IMG/VR virus record: IMGVR_UViG_3300042261_001033
Span: 1 to 21,569 of that record
Reading direction: 5' to 3' (one strand)
Source of the DNA: a virus
Length of the DNA: 21,569 bases
Below the pieces are notes generated by a model. It did no database searches and had not been told where the DNA came from. It worked only from the letters and a program-made list of their open reading frames with translations. Of the stretch, positions 1 to 6,129 are shown one piece after another. Within the stretch, counting starts at the first letter, position 1, and each line of letters starts with the position of its first letter. The position numbers and the translations under genes are program-made.

Positions 1-804
1 CTAGTAAATCTGGGTCATCTAATCGGTAAAAGCCTCAACGGAATTGTCGAACTGCTGCTTTCAAGCCGTGAAGCGGCGTTCGTCACAGTTGGGAAGGTGA
101 AAAATCTGATGGTATCAGCGGGATTGAGCCCTAACACAATCAACCGTCGGCTGGCAACAATTAGAGGATTGCTGAGAGTAGCCAGGGAACTGAGCCTGAT
201 TGATTGGGCTCTTGAAATCAAAAATCTCAAGGCCATCAAGATCAGAAACACATCTGGCCCAGGCGTCGAGAGAATCCAGTCGGCCATATCCGAGCCGGCC
301 AATGCTCAGTCGGCTCGTGACAATGCGATGATCATCCTAATGTCAACATTGGGCCTAAGGGTTGCCGAAGTGGCGGCTCTTGACCTGGCAGACTTTGCCG
401 GCTCAAAAATATCCGTTCGCAGGAAAGGGCACTTGCAGACAGTTCAGATGTCAGTGCCCGAACAGACTGCAAAAGCTATTCAAACCTGGCTATCATTCAG
501 AGGTTACAACGTCGGCCCCCTGTTCACGTCGTTCGATCGGGCTGGCAAAGGCTCAGGACGCTTAACCACTCGCTCAATCGGGCGCATCACTCAGGCTAAA
601 GTCGGCTGCAATCCTCACGGGCTGAGGCATACAGCGATAACCACGGCGATTGAACTCGCCAACGACAATGGCGTCGAATTCACCGAGTGCCGTCAGTTCA
701 GCGGACACTCACAGATTGATACGCTTCTGGTGTATCGTGATCAGACAAGGAATGTTCAAGGGACTCTAGCGGCGGCAGTCGCCAATAAAATAATGGGGGC
801 GTGA
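1..804 (+). CDS. int: Tyrosine recombinase (phage integrase), 5' end outside window
   Basis: This is a site-specific recombinase that would integrate and excise the phage at the nearby tRNA-derived att core. The frame is open from base 1, so the N-terminus is missing; a GTG at 97 is only an internal candidate start. Numbered from that GTG, the catalytic set is complete: Arg88 in LGLRVAEV, Lys110 in the beta-hairpin RRKGH, HGLRH (His174, Arg177), GHS (His204) and the nucleophile Tyr213 in LLVYRD. A SAM-like core-binding region precedes the catalytic domain (SPNTINRRLATIRGLLRVA). The stop codon overlaps the GTG of the next small gene. The att site begins about 250 bp downstream, the usual int-att neighbourhood. 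The family call is strong; the exact subfamily cannot be told. Confidence 0.93.
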   Translation, partial: LVNLGHLIGKSLNGIVELLLSSREAAFVTVGKVKNLMVSAGLSPNTINRRLATIRGLLRVARELSLIDWALEIKNLKAIKIRNTSGPGVERIQSAISEPANAQSARDNAMIILMSTLGLRVAEVAALDLADFAGSKISVRRKGHLQTVQMSVPEQTAKAIQTWLSFRGYNVGPLFTSFDRAGKGSGRLTTRSIGRITQAKVGCNPHGLRHTAITTAIELANDNGVEFTECRQFSGHSQIDTLLVYRDQTRNVQGTLAAAVANKIMGA

Positions 805-1052: not shown

Positions 1053-1073
1053 GTGCAACCAAAAGTGCAACCA
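1053..1073 (+). repeat. Arm-type site pair, left of att core
   Basis: Two direct copies of GTGCAACCA start at 1053 and 1065, 12 bp apart, about 40 bp before the att core. The same pair with the same spacing recurs to the right of the core. They are probably binding sites for the N-terminal arm-binding domain of the integrase, which is itself outside the window. Confidence 0.65.
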
Positions 1074-1112
1074 ACTCGCTCTAACATATTGTAACTAAAT
1101 TCATTGCTTCAA

Positions 1113-1159
1113 GATTCCTAATCCGCAGGTCGCAGGTTCGATTCCTGCCGGGGGTACCA
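1113..1159 (+). other. att core: 3' portion of tRNA-Arg(CCT) from anticodon arm to CCA
   Basis: Reading backwards from CCA (1157-1159) there is discriminator A, acceptor 3' strand CGGGGGT (1149-1155), a perfect T-arm GCAGG-TTCGATT-CCTGC (1132-1148), a 5-nt variable loop AGGTC, anticodon-stem 3' strand TCCGC, and a loop TTCCTAA with anticodon CCT. The 5' strand of the anticodon stem should read GCGGA, but only its last two bases (GA, 1113-1114) are present, and no D-arm or acceptor 5' strand occurs upstream. The tRNA is therefore incomplete, as expected for a phage-borne att identity block that restores the host tRNA on integration. Confidence 0.88.
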
Positions 1160-1171
1160 AAGAAAAACATT

Positions 1172-1196
1172 AAAGATCAGCAAGTTGCTGGTCTTT
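1172..1196 (+). terminator. Hairpin just after the att core, possible terminator for the restored tRNA
   Basis: AAAGATCAGCAA and TTGCTGGTCTTT face each other across one base, giving a stem of about 11 bp with a 3-nt loop and one G-U pair, followed by ATTTAGTT and preceded by an A-rich run. It begins 12 bp after the CCA end of the att core on the phage side. After integration it would lie directly downstream of the reconstituted tRNA-Arg gene and could supply its terminator. The T-tract is imperfect, so termination strength is uncertain. Confidence 0.55.
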
Positions 1197-1216
1197 ATTT
1201 AGTTCTGAGACAGGTA

Positions 1217-1225
1217 TGGTTGCAC
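1217..1225 (-). repeat. Inverted arm-type site, right of att core
   Basis: TGGTTGCAC is the exact reverse complement of the GTGCAACCA repeat and sits about 58 bp after the core. A single inverted copy between the core and the distal direct pair fits an asymmetric P' arm. The role is inferred from its match to the other four copies. Confidence 0.55.
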
Positions 1226-1286
1226 TTTTTACACAGAATTCGCCCTCAACAATACCGCATATTTACATCATGTGGCATTTCGAAGA

Positions 1287-1307
1287 GTGCAACCAGAAGT
1301 GCAACCA
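1287..1307 (+). repeat. Arm-type site pair, right of att core
   Basis: Two direct copies of GTGCAACCA start at 1287 and 1299, again 12 bp apart, matching the spacing of the left pair. Exact repetition of both word and spacing on either side of the core is the main argument for integrase arm sites. Confidence 0.65.
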
Positions 1308-1380: not shown

Positions 1381-1409
1381 TTGACATTTAGGTGAGTTTG
1401 GTGTAACAG
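1381..1409 (+). promoter_or_regulatory. Candidate sigma70-type promoter for the late leader
   Basis: A perfect -35 hexamer TTGACA (1381-1386) is followed by a 17-bp spacer and a poor -10 TAACAG (1404-1409) with TG directly before it. It points towards the inverted repeat, the structured RNA and the terminase genes, where a late promoter would be expected. The weak -10 suggests an activator or that the match is chance. Confidence 0.3.
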
Positions 1410-1417
1410 CGGCCCCA

Positions 1418-1459
1418 AATTTATCGGAACGGCTCGAAACCGTAATTTACCGATAAATT
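1418..1459. promoter_or_regulatory. Inverted repeat, possible operator or leader hairpin
   Basis: AATTTATCGG (1418-1427) and CCGATAAATT (1450-1459) are perfect 10-bp inverted repeats with a nested ACGG/CCGT pair (1429-1432 and 1440-1443). The element lies just downstream of the candidate promoter and upstream of the structured RNA. AT-rich dyads like this can be regulator binding sites; as RNA it would form a two-part stem. I cannot choose between these roles. Confidence 0.5.
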
Positions 1460-1490
1460 CCCAAGGCTTGACGGCTTTTCTCCTTCACAA

Positions 1491-1645
1491 GAAGACGCCC
1501 GCCCTGACGGCGGTTTCCTCCCCGCTCAACGCTGTCGCTGTGCATAACTCATCATGTGCTCCCCCTAACAGAGCAGACTGGTCCAGCAGAAAAGGCTTTT
1601 CCCTGCTTACTTCTCAGGGAAACGGGCGGGCGTCTTCATTTTTTT
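1491..1645 (+). ncRNA. Candidate structured leader RNA or small RNA ending in a T-tract, upstream of terS
   Basis: Ends pair perfectly over 14 bp: GAAGACGCCCGCCC (1491-1504) with GGGCGGGCGTCTTC (1624-1637), followed by seven T (1639-1645). Inside are further stems: GACGGCG/CGCTGTC (1506-1512 and 1530-1536, one G-U), TGCTC/GAGCA (1557-1561 and 1571-1575) and TTTCCCTG/CAGGGAAA (1598-1605 and 1615-1622). The result is a closed multi-branch fold with an intrinsic-terminator-like 3' end. A 66-codon TTG frame through it has no Shine-Dalgarno sequence and looks non-coding. Possible roles are a terminated late leader relieved by antitermination (as with lambda 6S RNA and tR'), a packaging-related RNA, or a regulatory small RNA. 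The fold is visible; the function is not. Confidence 0.6.
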
Positions 1646-1658
1646 CTAGGGGGCGCGC

Positions 1659-2135
1659 TTGCCGGTAAAGGCTATCGACAAACAGAGACCTGTTCTCCGC
1701 GTGCTGCCTATGGAGAGGCCTGTCTCCGTCGATAGAGACATCTATGCCGAAACGCAGCCGGCTCTACTGAACGCGTACAACATGATCGAGTCCATGCTCA
1801 ACAAGAACATGACGGCGGTCATCAATAATATCCGACCAGAAAATATAAACGATATCGTCAAACTCTCCAACGCCCTGTCCTCGCTCGGGAGGACCGCCGT
1901 TGAAGTGGAACGCTGGGAATACCAGAAAAACACCATGCTCAAAGAGGCCGTAGACTACGTGAAATCCGAGATCCGAGGCCTCCTGGAGACGAAACACCCT
2001 GAGCTAATGGATGAACTAGTCAGGGTGCTCGAAAAACATGGAGGAAATGAGGACTCATTCGCGATGCAGGCGCAGATCAGTTCGCGTCTTCATCGCTCGC
2101 AAGCCAGGCAGTTGGTTGATGAGGGCGATGAATAA
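1659..2135 (+). CDS. Putative terminase small subunit
   Basis: The 158-residue product is largely helical, with a long amphipathic section (NAYNMIESMLNKNM, then VKLSNALSSLGRTAVEVERW) and an acidic C-terminus (LVDEGDE). The call rests mainly on position: it directly precedes the large terminase gene with a TAATG stop-start overlap. Small terminase subunits recognise phage DNA and form a ring that stimulates the large subunit; no clear N-terminal helix-turn-helix is visible. The start is a TTG at 1659 supported by AGGGGG (1648-1653) five bases upstream. That ribosome site immediately follows the T-tract of the structured RNA, so folding or termination there could control entry into the operon. 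Confidence 0.65.
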   Translation: MPVKAIDKQRPVLRVLPMERPVSVDRDIYAETQPALLNAYNMIESMLNKNMTAVINNIRPENINDIVKLSNALSSLGRTAVEVERWEYQKNTMLKEAVDYVKSEIRGLLETKHPELMDELVRVLEKHGGNEDSFAMQAQISSRLHRSQARQLVDEGDE

Positions 2136-3814
2136 TGCCACCAGTCACTCACGGCCTGGCGAGCCTACTGCCGCAAAATCACCCGTATTTCTTCCCGGTA
2201 AAGAAAAAACGATCGCTTGCGAAATGGTGCAAGGACATCCGGTACACAATAGATGGCAATGTATTCCGACTAGACAAAATACCTTATGCGAAACAGGTCT
2301 ACGCCGACGAAGCTACCACGTACGTGTTCAGGAAAGGCTCCCAGGTTGCGATGTCATCTTGGGCGCTCGCCAAAGCATTCCACGGAGCAGATGAACATGG
2401 GATGAGGTGGATCTATTTTCTCCCCACAGACGCAGAGATGGACGATTTCGTCCAGGATCGCGTCCAGGGGGTGATTGCCGCCTCAGACCATCTCTCCAGC
2501 AGGATCGGATCAATTGACAACTCAGGCCTGAAGAAAATCGGGCCCAATGGTGGGCTAATATACTTCCGTGGGCTGTGGACCCGGCGTCACGCAAAATCAG
2601 TCCCTGCGGACGGTCTCATATTCGACGAGGTGGACGAGATCCAACCCGAACTGATAGCGTTCGGCGAGGACAGGGTTTTGGCGTCAGAGTGGCAGACCAA
2701 AGTCTATCTGTCAGTGCCCTCCTTCTCAGACACAGGAATCGACAAACTATTTAAGGAAACTGATCAGAGATACTACCTGATTAAGTGCCGGTCGTGTGGA
2801 GAGTGGGCGTCGATTGATGAAGACTTCCCCAAGAACTTTCTCCCGGTTCCTCAGGCCAGCAAGAAATCATTCCCACAAGGGGCGAAATACTACCTCGGTT
2901 GCCGCAGCTGCGGGAACGAACTGAGGATCGTCCACGGGGAATGGGTGCCAAAAGTCCCTGACGAATTTCGTCACGGTTACCATGTCTCGCGCCTACTGCA
3001 AGAGGGCTGCCCGCCTGACTTCGCCAATGCCGCCACCTATCTCATGGACGAATACAAGAGATCTCAAGGCTCCCAGACGCGGACATCCCGTTTCACTATC
3101 GCGTTTAGGGGAATGCCATTTGATGGTGAAGGCGCGCGCATAACCGAGGAACTGCTTGACCAGATGGAGACTCCGGGGCAGGGCTGGAACTATACCGGCA
3201 ATGGATACTTCATGGGAGTGGATCAGGGCGATATGCTGGACATAGGTATCTACTGCAAACACGGCGACAAACTCCAGTTGGTCTACTGCGAGAACACCCA
3301 GGAATGGGACCGCCTCGATATGCTTATGGATCGGTACAGCATAGTGATGGCCGGAGTAGACGGCAACCCGAACAGACACAACGCCAAGAAATTTGCGGCC
3401 AAATACAAGAGACGGGCTTTCATCCAGGACTTTACGGGTGACAGTCTCCAGGACAAGACCTCAATGTATGAGGGCAAGACGCCTGTCAGATGGATCACGG
3501 CTGAGCGTACACAGTCGCTGGACGCCACTGTCGATTTCATAGAATCGGGGAGGTTGATGCTCCCTGATAAATGTAGACTGACGGGTCGCGATCTCTCAAT
3601 GTATGAGCGATACAGGCAGCACCTGAGGAACCTCAAGAGCAAACTGGAAGCGCCATTGACCGGAGCCACCCCTAAACGGGTATATCTCCGCAATGTGCCG
3701 AACCACCAGGGCATGGCTCTCAATACCGCACGGATAGCCGCATTCGAGTTGGGAGTCCGACCTCCTGTAACGGGGACAATGCCAGCATTTATCCGATGGG
3801 GGGGCAACGCATGA
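2135..3814 (+). CDS. terL: Terminase large subunit, GpA-like (packaging ATPase and nuclease)
   Basis: This 559-residue motor protein cuts concatemers and pumps DNA into the prohead. A lambda-type deviant Walker A is seen at residues 67-75 (KGSQVAMSS), where Lys67 aligns with the displaced lysine of lambda gpA (KSARVGYSK). Walker B is LIFDE (161-165). A four-cysteine zinc ribbon is formed by CRSC at 218-221 and 256-259, as in the GpA family. The C-terminal nuclease has the acidic motifs GVDQGD (361-366) and AGVDGN (406-411) and a late His region (VPNHQGMALN). Length is normal for GpA-type enzymes. It overlaps the putative small subunit by TAATG and the portal gene by ATGA, implying coupled translation. 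Confidence 0.93.
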   Translation: MPPVTHGLASLLPQNHPYFFPVKKKRSLAKWCKDIRYTIDGNVFRLDKIPYAKQVYADEATTYVFRKGSQVAMSSWALAKAFHGADEHGMRWIYFLPTDAEMDDFVQDRVQGVIAASDHLSSRIGSIDNSGLKKIGPNGGLIYFRGLWTRRHAKSVPADGLIFDEVDEIQPELIAFGEDRVLASEWQTKVYLSVPSFSDTGIDKLFKETDQRYYLIKCRSCGEWASIDEDFPKNFLPVPQASKKSFPQGAKYYLGCRSCGNELRIVHGEWVPKVPDEFRHGYHVSRLLQEGCPPDFANAATYLMDEYKRSQGSQTRTSRFTIAFRGMPFDGEGARITEELLDQMETPGQGWNYTGNGYFMGVDQGDMLDIGIYCKHGDKLQLVYCENTQEWDRLDMLMDRYSIVMAGVDGNPNRHNAKKFAAKYKRRAFIQDFTGDSLQDKTSMYEGKTPVRWITAERTQSLDATVDFIESGRLMLPDKCRLTGRDLSMYERYRQHLRNLKSKLEAPLTGATPKRVYLRNVPNHQGMALNTARIAAFELGVRPPVTGTMPAFIRWGGNA

Positions 3815-6129
3815 GTTGGCTCTCACGGATATGGAATGCCGCGCCCAAGAAGGGGACAGCCCCAGGCATGGTCGCCAGGATATCCACTGACGATACTGAT
3901 ACGTGGCAGGATTCATTCCAGGGCTATGCCACCGGCATGGTCTGGATGGCGGCCAAATACCCGTTCGAGTGGATGCCATTCATAGATGGACTATACAAGT
4001 TCGAGCCCAACTGCAGAAAACACCTCCTATCGACAATAGCGCTAGGGAACCCGGGTCATAATCTGGAGATAGTCACTGCGAGCGAGTCCAGAGCCAGAGA
4101 CGCTCTCTCAGTGTGCAACGACCTCGCAGCGAGATGTTTCCCGCGCGCCAGCGGGGCGGATGGGCTAATAAACGGAATGTTATCCCAAGCTGCAAGGTCT
4201 GGGGGCATCTGCTGTGAATGGGCCCCAGATCTCAAGGTCTCCAGAGTTGAACGAGCGTATCTGCCACCGGTCCGGACGATCAGGTTCAGGCGCCGACCCG
4301 ACGGATCCGTAGAGTTGGGGCAGCTCCAGGATGGTCTGTTCGTGGCTCTCAATCCGTTGCAGACGTCATTCCACGCTATCTACTTCGAAGACGAAAACCC
4401 CTACCCCATTCCCCCCGTCCTGGCAGCTCTCCAGAGACTAGCCAATCACAAGAAAGTCATGGAGCATGTCGAGCAATGGTTCAATAAACTCAGCGCCATG
4501 GGATTCCTTTCGATCGTGGCGGAACGCCCTGAGAACATGGGCGAATCCGAGAGTGAATATAAGGCTAAATGCTCAGCGCAACTTACGGAACTGAGCGCGG
4601 TGGTGAAAGACAATCTAACCTCCGGGGTCGTCCTCAGTTATGACGACCTGTCTTCCACATTCAATAACACAAACGCTGGGGCCGCCGGGGCCAAGCAGAT
4701 AGCACAGCTAATAGATGAGGACCTTTTTGCAGGGCTCGGCCGTGATCCAGTCATGTTCGGGCGCTCGTTCAGTCGATCCGAGACATGGTCAAAGGTCGCA
4801 TATGAGGAGCTCTGCGTAGAGATAAAGAATATCCAGCAGGGGGCCAAGCGTTCATTAGAACACGGGCACCGTCTGAACCTAGACCTGCAGGGGTTCGGGG
4901 ATTGCGGTGTCAAGGTCGCGTTCAAGCCAATGCGGTCCCTGGATGGGTTCCGTGACGCTGAAGCCGAGCGGATGATCGCCGACAAGGTTTACGGCGCATG
5001 GGACAGGCAATTAATCAGCGATGACAAAGCCAGAAGGCTCCTTGGATACGAGGACTCGACCGCGAATGCCGGCAAATTCATCGCGTCATTCAACCATGGC
5101 GCCTACAGTCTAAATGACTTCAAGAGATCAATACATCCCGTCGGGAGACGGACGCTGACTGCCGACTCCCATTCGTATGACGGCCCAGAATATGACATTG
5201 GAGATCTTCCGATATTTATGTGGCCAATCGGACAGGGATCCCCGGATGACGCCAGGGCAGCCGCGAGACAATATCTGTCTGAGATCCAGGACATCCTGGG
5301 GGACGCAGGCGCTGTTGGTGTCCGGGCTGTCTATGAATGGGCCATGAGACACGAGATCCCATTTGTGGAGCAGTTCGTCGAGGAATGCTTCCGGCTATAC
5401 AGGGAAGCCACCGAGGCCGCCATAAGCGGCTCCAGGGTCGCGAGGTCAGCCGAAGGACACCTCGAGATAATATGGAAGGCGGGAAAATCGGACCCTGCGA
5501 TATATGGGCCCTCCAGACGTATAGGGATCGGCTCCCGCTTTGACGCTCCGGACAGCAGGGCTATCGACTACATGAGCGAGAAGGTTGACAAGATGTATAT
5601 CAGCCGCTTCGTCTCGAATTCACCGCAGCGATCCAAGCAAATACAGAGCTGGATCCAGAATCAATACCTGGAACGAGGGCTTGGGATAGGTCGCACGACA
5701 GAACAGTTAGACAAGTTCATAGACAACTTCGGCGACATATCGGGCCGGCTCACGCAACATTCAGCCAGGATAATAGTCGATACATCGGTGCAACGGGCGA
5801 GGAACTGGTCCGCAATATATGGCCTGTCCGAAGAAGGGTTCAAGGAATTCAGGATCGCCGGCCCGATGGACAATATCACCTGCCGATACTGCAGGAACAT
5901 GGTGGGCAGGACATTTCAGGTTTCCACAGAGAAGCACAGAATAGAGAACATTATAGATACCGGCGATGAGGACATATCACGGTTCAGTCCGTTCCTGACC
6001 GCCCGCTACGGGAAAAAGGACGGATTCGAGCAACTGACGACTTCTACTGACGCAGAAGTGCAACGGGGAGGGATGGTGACGCCACCATTCCACTGTTTGT
6101 GCAGACATCGCCTGGTCGCAGTGGTGTGA
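3811..6129 (+). CDS. Portal protein fused to a MuF-type minor head domain
   Basis: This 772-residue protein combines two jobs usually coded by adjacent genes. The N-terminal part (about 1-430) reads as a portal: it has a helical PPVLAALQRLANHKKVMEHV segment typical of portal stems and a later FAGLGRDPVMFGRSFSRSET region. The C-terminal 230 residues are a Mu gpF / SPP1 gp7-like domain with its metal-site pattern: TCRYCRNMVG (Cys691, Cys694) and PPFHCLCRH (His761, Cys762, Cys764). I chose ATG 3811, which overlaps the terminase stop as ATGA and has a G-rich Shine-Dalgarno run (3798-3804). An in-frame ATG at 3796 would add five residues. The portal subfamily (perhaps DUF935/Mu gp29-like) is uncertain. 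Confidence 0.87.
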   Translation: MSWLSRIWNAAPKKGTAPGMVARISTDDTDTWQDSFQGYATGMVWMAAKYPFEWMPFIDGLYKFEPNCRKHLLSTIALGNPGHNLEIVTASESRARDALSVCNDLAARCFPRASGADGLINGMLSQAARSGGICCEWAPDLKVSRVERAYLPPVRTIRFRRRPDGSVELGQLQDGLFVALNPLQTSFHAIYFEDENPYPIPPVLAALQRLANHKKVMEHVEQWFNKLSAMGFLSIVAERPENMGESESEYKAKCSAQLTELSAVVKDNLTSGVVLSYDDLSSTFNNTNAGAAGAKQIAQLIDEDLFAGLGRDPVMFGRSFSRSETWSKVAYEELCVEIKNIQQGAKRSLEHGHRLNLDLQGFGDCGVKVAFKPMRSLDGFRDAEAERMIADKVYGAWDRQLISDDKARRLLGYEDSTANAGKFIASFNHGAYSLNDFKRSIHPVGRRTLTADSHSYDGPEYDIGDLPIFMWPIGQGSPDDARAAARQYLSEIQDILGDAGAVGVRAVYEWAMRHEIPFVEQFVEECFRLYREATEAAISGSRVARSAEGHLEIIWKAGKSDPAIYGPSRRIGIGSRFDAPDSRAIDYMSEKVDKMYISRFVSNSPQRSKQIQSWIQNQYLERGLGIGRTTEQLDKFIDNFGDISGRLTQHSARIIVDTSVQRARNWSAIYGLSEEGFKEFRIAGPMDNITCRYCRNMVGRTFQVSTEKHRIENIIDTGDEDISRFSPFLTARYGKKDGFEQLTTSTDAEVQRGGMVTPPFHCLCRHRLVAVV

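Follow-up and report, generated by a model that had tools for sequence, protein, structure and literature searches.

The window analyzed here, meaning the whole stretch of DNA, is a 21.6 kb virus record (21,569 nt). It begins with a tyrosine integrase gene, followed by an attP region carrying the 3′ end of a tRNA gene, a short terminator, a promoter-like site, a structured leader, and the genes for the small and large terminase subunits, terS and terL (Table 1). The leader is located between attP and terS. Downstream of terL, portal, protease, capsid, and tail genes were found, including those for head, sheath, and baseplate, and because these genes come after it, position 1659 was taken as the start of the late operon. 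The portal protein (3796–6129) carries a C-terminal extension weakly matching minor head protein families and resembles a portal–MuF-like fusion.

Table 1. Features of the attP–terminase region, in positions of the window.
Feature	Position	Strand	Remarks
Tyrosine integrase	1–804	+	Cut by the left window end; Pfam Phage_integrase, 6e-11; phrog_1
attP region, arm-type repeats GTGCAACCA	1053–1307		1053–1061, 1065–1073, 1287–1295, 1299–1307; inverted 1217–1225
att core, tRNA gene 3′ end	1110–1160	+	Read as tRNA-Arg; GGTTCGATTCC T-arm, CCA end; L003 alignment
Short intrinsic terminator	1171–1197	+	Just after the tRNA 3′ end; same place in L003
Promoter-like site	1381–1409	+	−35 TTGACA 1381–1386, 17 nt, weak −10 TAACAG 1404–1409
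5′ domain	1418–1459	+	P1 1418–1427/1450–1459; P2 hairpin 1429–1432/1440–1443
Linker	1460–1490	+	Conserved words CAAGG and CTCCTT, 13 nt apart in both phages; pairing uncertain
Outer terminator stem, 5′ arm	1491–1504	+	GAAGACGCCCGCCC
Conserved hairpin GCGG-TTTCCTCC-CCGC	1510–1525	+	Inside the large loop; block differs from L003 at one position
Rest of large loop	1526–1623	+	Pyrimidine-rich; other branches not conserved
Outer terminator stem, 3′ arm	1624–1637	+	GGGCGGGCGTCTTC
T7 run, predicted termination site	1639–1645	+	T6 at the same place in L003
terS ribosome site, AGGGGG	1648–1653	+	G-rich; predicted paired
terS, small terminase subunit	1659–2135	+	TTG start; matches the C-terminal portion of Mu gp27-like TerS
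terL, large terminase subunit, GpA ATPase type	2135–3814	+	PF05876, 4e-16; phrog_675, 6e-91

A scan with TerL yielded one relative with the same layout upstream of its terminase genes, L003, a 70 kb record from a different metagenome. Compared with the window, identity was 76% for TerL, 64% for the integrase, 42% for TerS, and about 55% for the leader DNA. The order common to both phages is integrase, attP with the tRNA 3′ end, short terminator, TTGACA-17-TAnnAG, leader, terS, and terL; between integrase and attP, several small ORFs are present in L003 and one in the window.

The open reading frame at 1659, initially annotated as a putative small terminase gene, produced no direct hit in Pfam or PHROG at 1e-3. 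Its region 61–125, however, matched the C-terminal portion of Mu gp27-like TerS proteins in related records (hhalign probability 96%, E 2e-9; BLASTP E 2e-10), and TerS of L003 matches PF11985. These matches, together with terL beginning at 2135, supported the proposed identity. In TerS of both phages (5547–6002 in L003), the gp27-like C-terminal part is kept, whereas the N-terminal helix-turn-helix part found in L002, L005, and L006 is absent.

The closing stem directly before terS consists of 14 perfect pairs, including 11 G-C pairs, enclosing a loop of 119 nt and followed directly by A and seven T; the end of the T run lies 14 nt from the terS start. The perfect stem, the seven T, the ribosome site, and the TTG start described in the initial annotation were all confirmed at the positions given in Table 1. 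With its G+C-rich stem and T run on the transcribed strand, the structure has the sequence features of an intrinsic terminator. A stem of at least 12 pairs with a loop of 60–200 nt and a T run occurred once in the real window and in none of 30 Markov-shuffled windows. Termination at about 1645 is a prediction, and the very large loop makes its efficiency uncertain.

The fold of 1470–1670 alone was moderately better than that of shuffled sequences (z −2.3). For the full leader, z-scores against shuffles were −3.3 in the window (1413–1660) and −5.6 in L003, and RNAalifold applied to the two-sequence leader alignment yielded −7.8, the null being columns shuffled within match and mismatch classes.

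Covariation was counted for four helices named from the window, in a MAFFT alignment of the window and L003 only. In the outer stem, 8 of the 14 pairs were unchanged, 4 had changed on both sides, 2 had changed on one side to G-U, and none was broken. Helix P1 contained three pairs changed on both sides, two changed on one side to G-U, and one broken at the top, while in P2 one pair had changed on both sides. Over all four helices, 8 pairs had changed on both sides yet were kept, and 63 of 64 pair cells were standard. All four one-sided changes that keep pairing lead to G-U, as would be predicted for RNA. When the partner was slid by 1–3 columns, pairing fell from 98% to about 40%.

The leader is structured, and its structure is conserved between the two phages. 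The sequence comparison argues strongly that about 230 nt (approximately 1416–1645) form a covarying two-domain RNA; resting on one sequence pair, it is strong for the presence of the fold and not for its fine detail. It had been set out beforehand that a lack of compensatory changes in the outer stem or the inner stems would speak against the structure. The outer stem showed them; the three inner stems failed this check, apart from one invariant hairpin. The extent initially given for the element, 1491–1645, proved too short: the conserved unit starts upstream, with the promoter-like site and the covarying 5′ hairpin. These two features, as well as the upstream attP and the anti-Shine-Dalgarno-like loop described below, were absent from the initial annotation.

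The promoter-like site has its counterpart at the same place in L003 (TTGACA-17-TATTAG). The word TTGACATT is conserved at the equivalent place in L003, about 37 nt before P1. Its −10 box is weak, and the site was not called in a strict consensus promoter scan. Transcription from this putative promoter would start at about 1416, so that P1 would begin at about +2. Within the 5′ domain, the apex loop and an internal strand are highly conserved between both phages: the P2 loop, CTCGAAA, is T-loop-like, and the conserved strand reads TAATTT. For the linker, a third helix was predicted on the alignment; the alignment is ambiguous there and the helix is not claimed.

Three internal branches, as had been noted, were present in the minimum-energy fold of the window, but as a conserved feature they did not hold, since only the hairpin 1510–1513/1522–1525 is common to L003. 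Its stem is invariant, and the loop common to both phages reads (T/A)TTCCTCC. The window version, TTTCCTCC, resembles an anti-Shine-Dalgarno sequence and is complementary to ribosome sites of the GGAGG type, which serve several genes of the window phage. In both phages, an open frame crosses the loop of the terminator and extends past the start of terS (1468–1668 in the window, 5377–5556 in L003); it was judged non-coding.

The predicted cost of opening the terS ribosome site was nearly the same in both phages, 10.6 kcal/mol in the window and 10.4 kcal/mol in L003, with different pairing partners. Sequestration of this site by the linker word CTCCTT was predicted in L003, whereas the window site pairs with 1703–1709; the helix is not conserved and was rejected.

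At the att core, ARAGORN found no whole tRNA, and the Rfam tRNA model gave a weak match in L003 (E 0.12). The arm-type repeats of L003 (4924–5179) read GGACAACCA, with spacings of 12 and 234 nt identical to those of the window. The change of the arm sites in concert, from GTGCAACCA to GGACAACCA, suggests co-evolution with the arm-binding domain of the integrase. In the prophage, the leader and the late genes would lie at the end that joins the host tRNA gene and would be transcribed in the direction of that gene.

Further copies of the leader were sought in viral and bacterial collections, with TerL, TerS, the integrase, and three leader DNA patterns as queries, and no third copy was found; besides the window, the only carriers were L003 and overlapping fragments of its record. 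Sixteen other matches of one leader-pattern scan were unrelated, mostly AT-rich and without the fold, and 13 of another had unrelated sequence without a T run. The phage collection contained no similar leader DNA (two chance matches of 30 bases) and no TerS relative. In L002, L005, and L006, whose TerL is 47–59% identical, other genes lie directly before terS and no leader was present. The covariance model R1, applied to the regions of TerL relatives, matched nothing but the two sequences it was trained on and, on the opposite strand, the palindrome of the window. Rfam 15 gave no match in the window at the gathering score, and both leaders had only chance-level matches at E ≤ 10; the initial statement that the element belongs to no known family thus holds for this release.

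Taken as a whole, the element is best explained as a leader of the late operon that carries its own terminator, terminated by default and passed through antitermination during lytic growth. This reading is somewhat favored. It accommodates the promoter-like site, a hairpin placed right where the transcript would begin, and the terminator immediately ahead of terS. Transcription would begin near 1416, just beyond the P′ arm of attP, and the first transcript bases would form the 5′ hairpin module P1/P2, followed by the linker. The 14-bp stem around the 119-nt loop, with its seven T, would then act as an intrinsic terminator before terS. By default, polymerase would halt at about 1645, with the leader as the sole product. 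During lytic growth, antitermination, most simply by a phage protein or by the RNA module itself, acting via P1/P2, would open terS–terL and the head–tail genes. In the lysogen, the same terminator would prevent transcription of the host tRNA gene from running into the late genes. Promoter use, termination, read-through, and insulation are what we infer from this arrangement.

The initial comparison with the lambda 6S/tR′ leader fared best among the proposals made at that time, being backed by where the leader lies, by the promoter-like site and the T run, and by the fold that both phages conserve. As in the lambdoid pR′-6S-tR′ system with its Q protein, a leader of about 200 nt would head the late operon and end in an intrinsic terminator that has to be passed. 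In contrast, the lambda leader precedes lysis genes, while that of the window lies directly before terS, is more structured, and is placed beside attP. No Q- or N-like protein was recognized among the approximately 23 proteins of the L003 record that were scanned, and the window record comprises only 21.6 kb.

Few RNA antiterminators and terminated late leaders are known, most of them from lambdoid phages and Tn916-like elements. If the preferred reading is true, the junction of attP and terS holds an unrelated solution for silencing packaging genes downstream of an active host tRNA gene. The leader forms a compact construct of 230 nt that is testable in vitro.

A less likely, though realistic, alternative is a plain insulator. 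Here the structure would be a terminator only, shielding terS from transcripts that originate in the host tRNA gene or that come from int through attP, and the late genes would be activated in another way, with no antitermination. A terminator before terS would be useful as an insulator because in a prophage the late genes would lie immediately behind the host tRNA gene, and a first terminator (1171–1197) already follows that gene. Tn916 combines an end terminator serving as insulator with an antiterminator, and T1 has been demonstrated to insulate in this way (PMC11658703). There too, the terminator lies near one end of the integrated element, before dangerous genes, and is read through in the excised form (PMC11658703). 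However, canT of Tn916 is a separate sequence of 452 nt, physically apart from the genes behind T1 when the element is integrated (PMC11658703), whereas promoter, hairpin module, and terminator of the window all lie on the same side of attP. The likeness noted here is one of layout. An insulator also fails to account for three conserved features: the promoter-like site that separates the two terminators, the 5′ hairpin, and the loop of the inner hairpin.

The 5′ hairpin could alternatively act through RNA alone, P1/P2 binding the polymerase and making it terminator-proof in the manner of HK022 putRNA or Tn916 canT, which would carry transcripts begun in the phage beyond the terminator. Two observations point in this direction, namely the high conservation of the P1/P2 loop and internal strand and the location of the module at the 5′ end of the transcript, as with the structured putL RNA, which begins at A3 (PMC9378689). 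The put elements, however, belong to early operons and comprise two stem-loops in two copies (PMC9378689), unlike the leader with its one clear stem-loop and one copy per record in the window and L003 (the window record may be partial). In local alignment with the pL-nun stretch of HK022, the leader scored no better than shuffles, which argues against homology. Transcripts started upstream would, moreover, carry the P1/P2 module too. Antitermination by RNA alone is regarded as unlikely. A similarly low probability was assigned to a more far-reaching proposal, in which the 5′ hairpin, characterized by an apex resembling a T-loop and by the invariant strand UAAUUU, would represent a novel type of antitermination RNA. 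It would make late expression dependent on excision and would work together with a large-loop terminator that, in the lysogen, shields the late genes from the host tRNA gene.

The terminated leader might also be a trans-acting small RNA whose loop TTTCCTCC pairs with Shine-Dalgarno sites, termination then just setting its 3′ end. The sole strictly conserved block of the loop is indeed the hairpin complementary to GGAGG-type sites. A precedent is the late leader of Stx phages from PR′ to tR′, which is constitutively transcribed and terminated in lysogens and can become the stable regulatory small RNA StxS (PMC7873438); the by-product logic may be shared, while the sequence context differs. Against this reading, the anti-Shine-Dalgarno-like word is short and common, and P1/P2 would be left unexplained, which makes a regulatory RNA as the main function rather doubtful. 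The small-RNA reading is nonetheless compatible with that of a late-operon leader, and a stable small RNA is a possible product of the latter.

The inverted repeats could instead be DNA elements, recognized by terminase or serving as cos beside terS. The cos site of lambda is found immediately ahead of terS, an arrangement that the position of the leader fits. The four one-sided changes to G-U, on the other hand, keep an RNA helix but break DNA palindromes, the T run follows the stem on one strand only, and the arms are 119 nt apart, all of which renders a DNA element very improbable.

A translated leader peptide with attenuation was considered in view of the open frame across the loop, which in both phages continues to the terS start with SSPL codons in common. 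It was rejected as barely credible: the TTG starts have no well-spaced ribosome site, the conserved block shows no synonymous change, the other aligned codons differ, and the 3′ stem arms of the two phages fall into different reading frames.

Least credible of all is a packaging RNA like that of phi29, produced beside the motor genes, as had also been proposed initially. Adjacency to terS–terL, and a TerS without the helix-turn-helix part of its relatives, would suit such a role, but TerL is of the GpA type and not a phi29-type ATPase, the leader has no pRNA match in Rfam, and the start of the operon explains its position; beyond position, the proposal gained no support. Staphylococcal cabRNA likewise is a structured phage RNA from the terminase region (PMC10686824). 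It originates from inside the terS–terL coding sequence and is a defence trigger activating CdnE cyclases (PMC10686824), whereas the leader of the window is untranslated and lies upstream of terS.

Two minor observations concern the integration region. The L003 record contains two tyrosine-integrase-like genes about 2.7 kb apart (L033 5373–6440 and 9114–10019). In the window, the promoter-like site (1381–1409) lies about 75 nt past the last attP arm-type repeat, and integrase complexes might affect late transcription.
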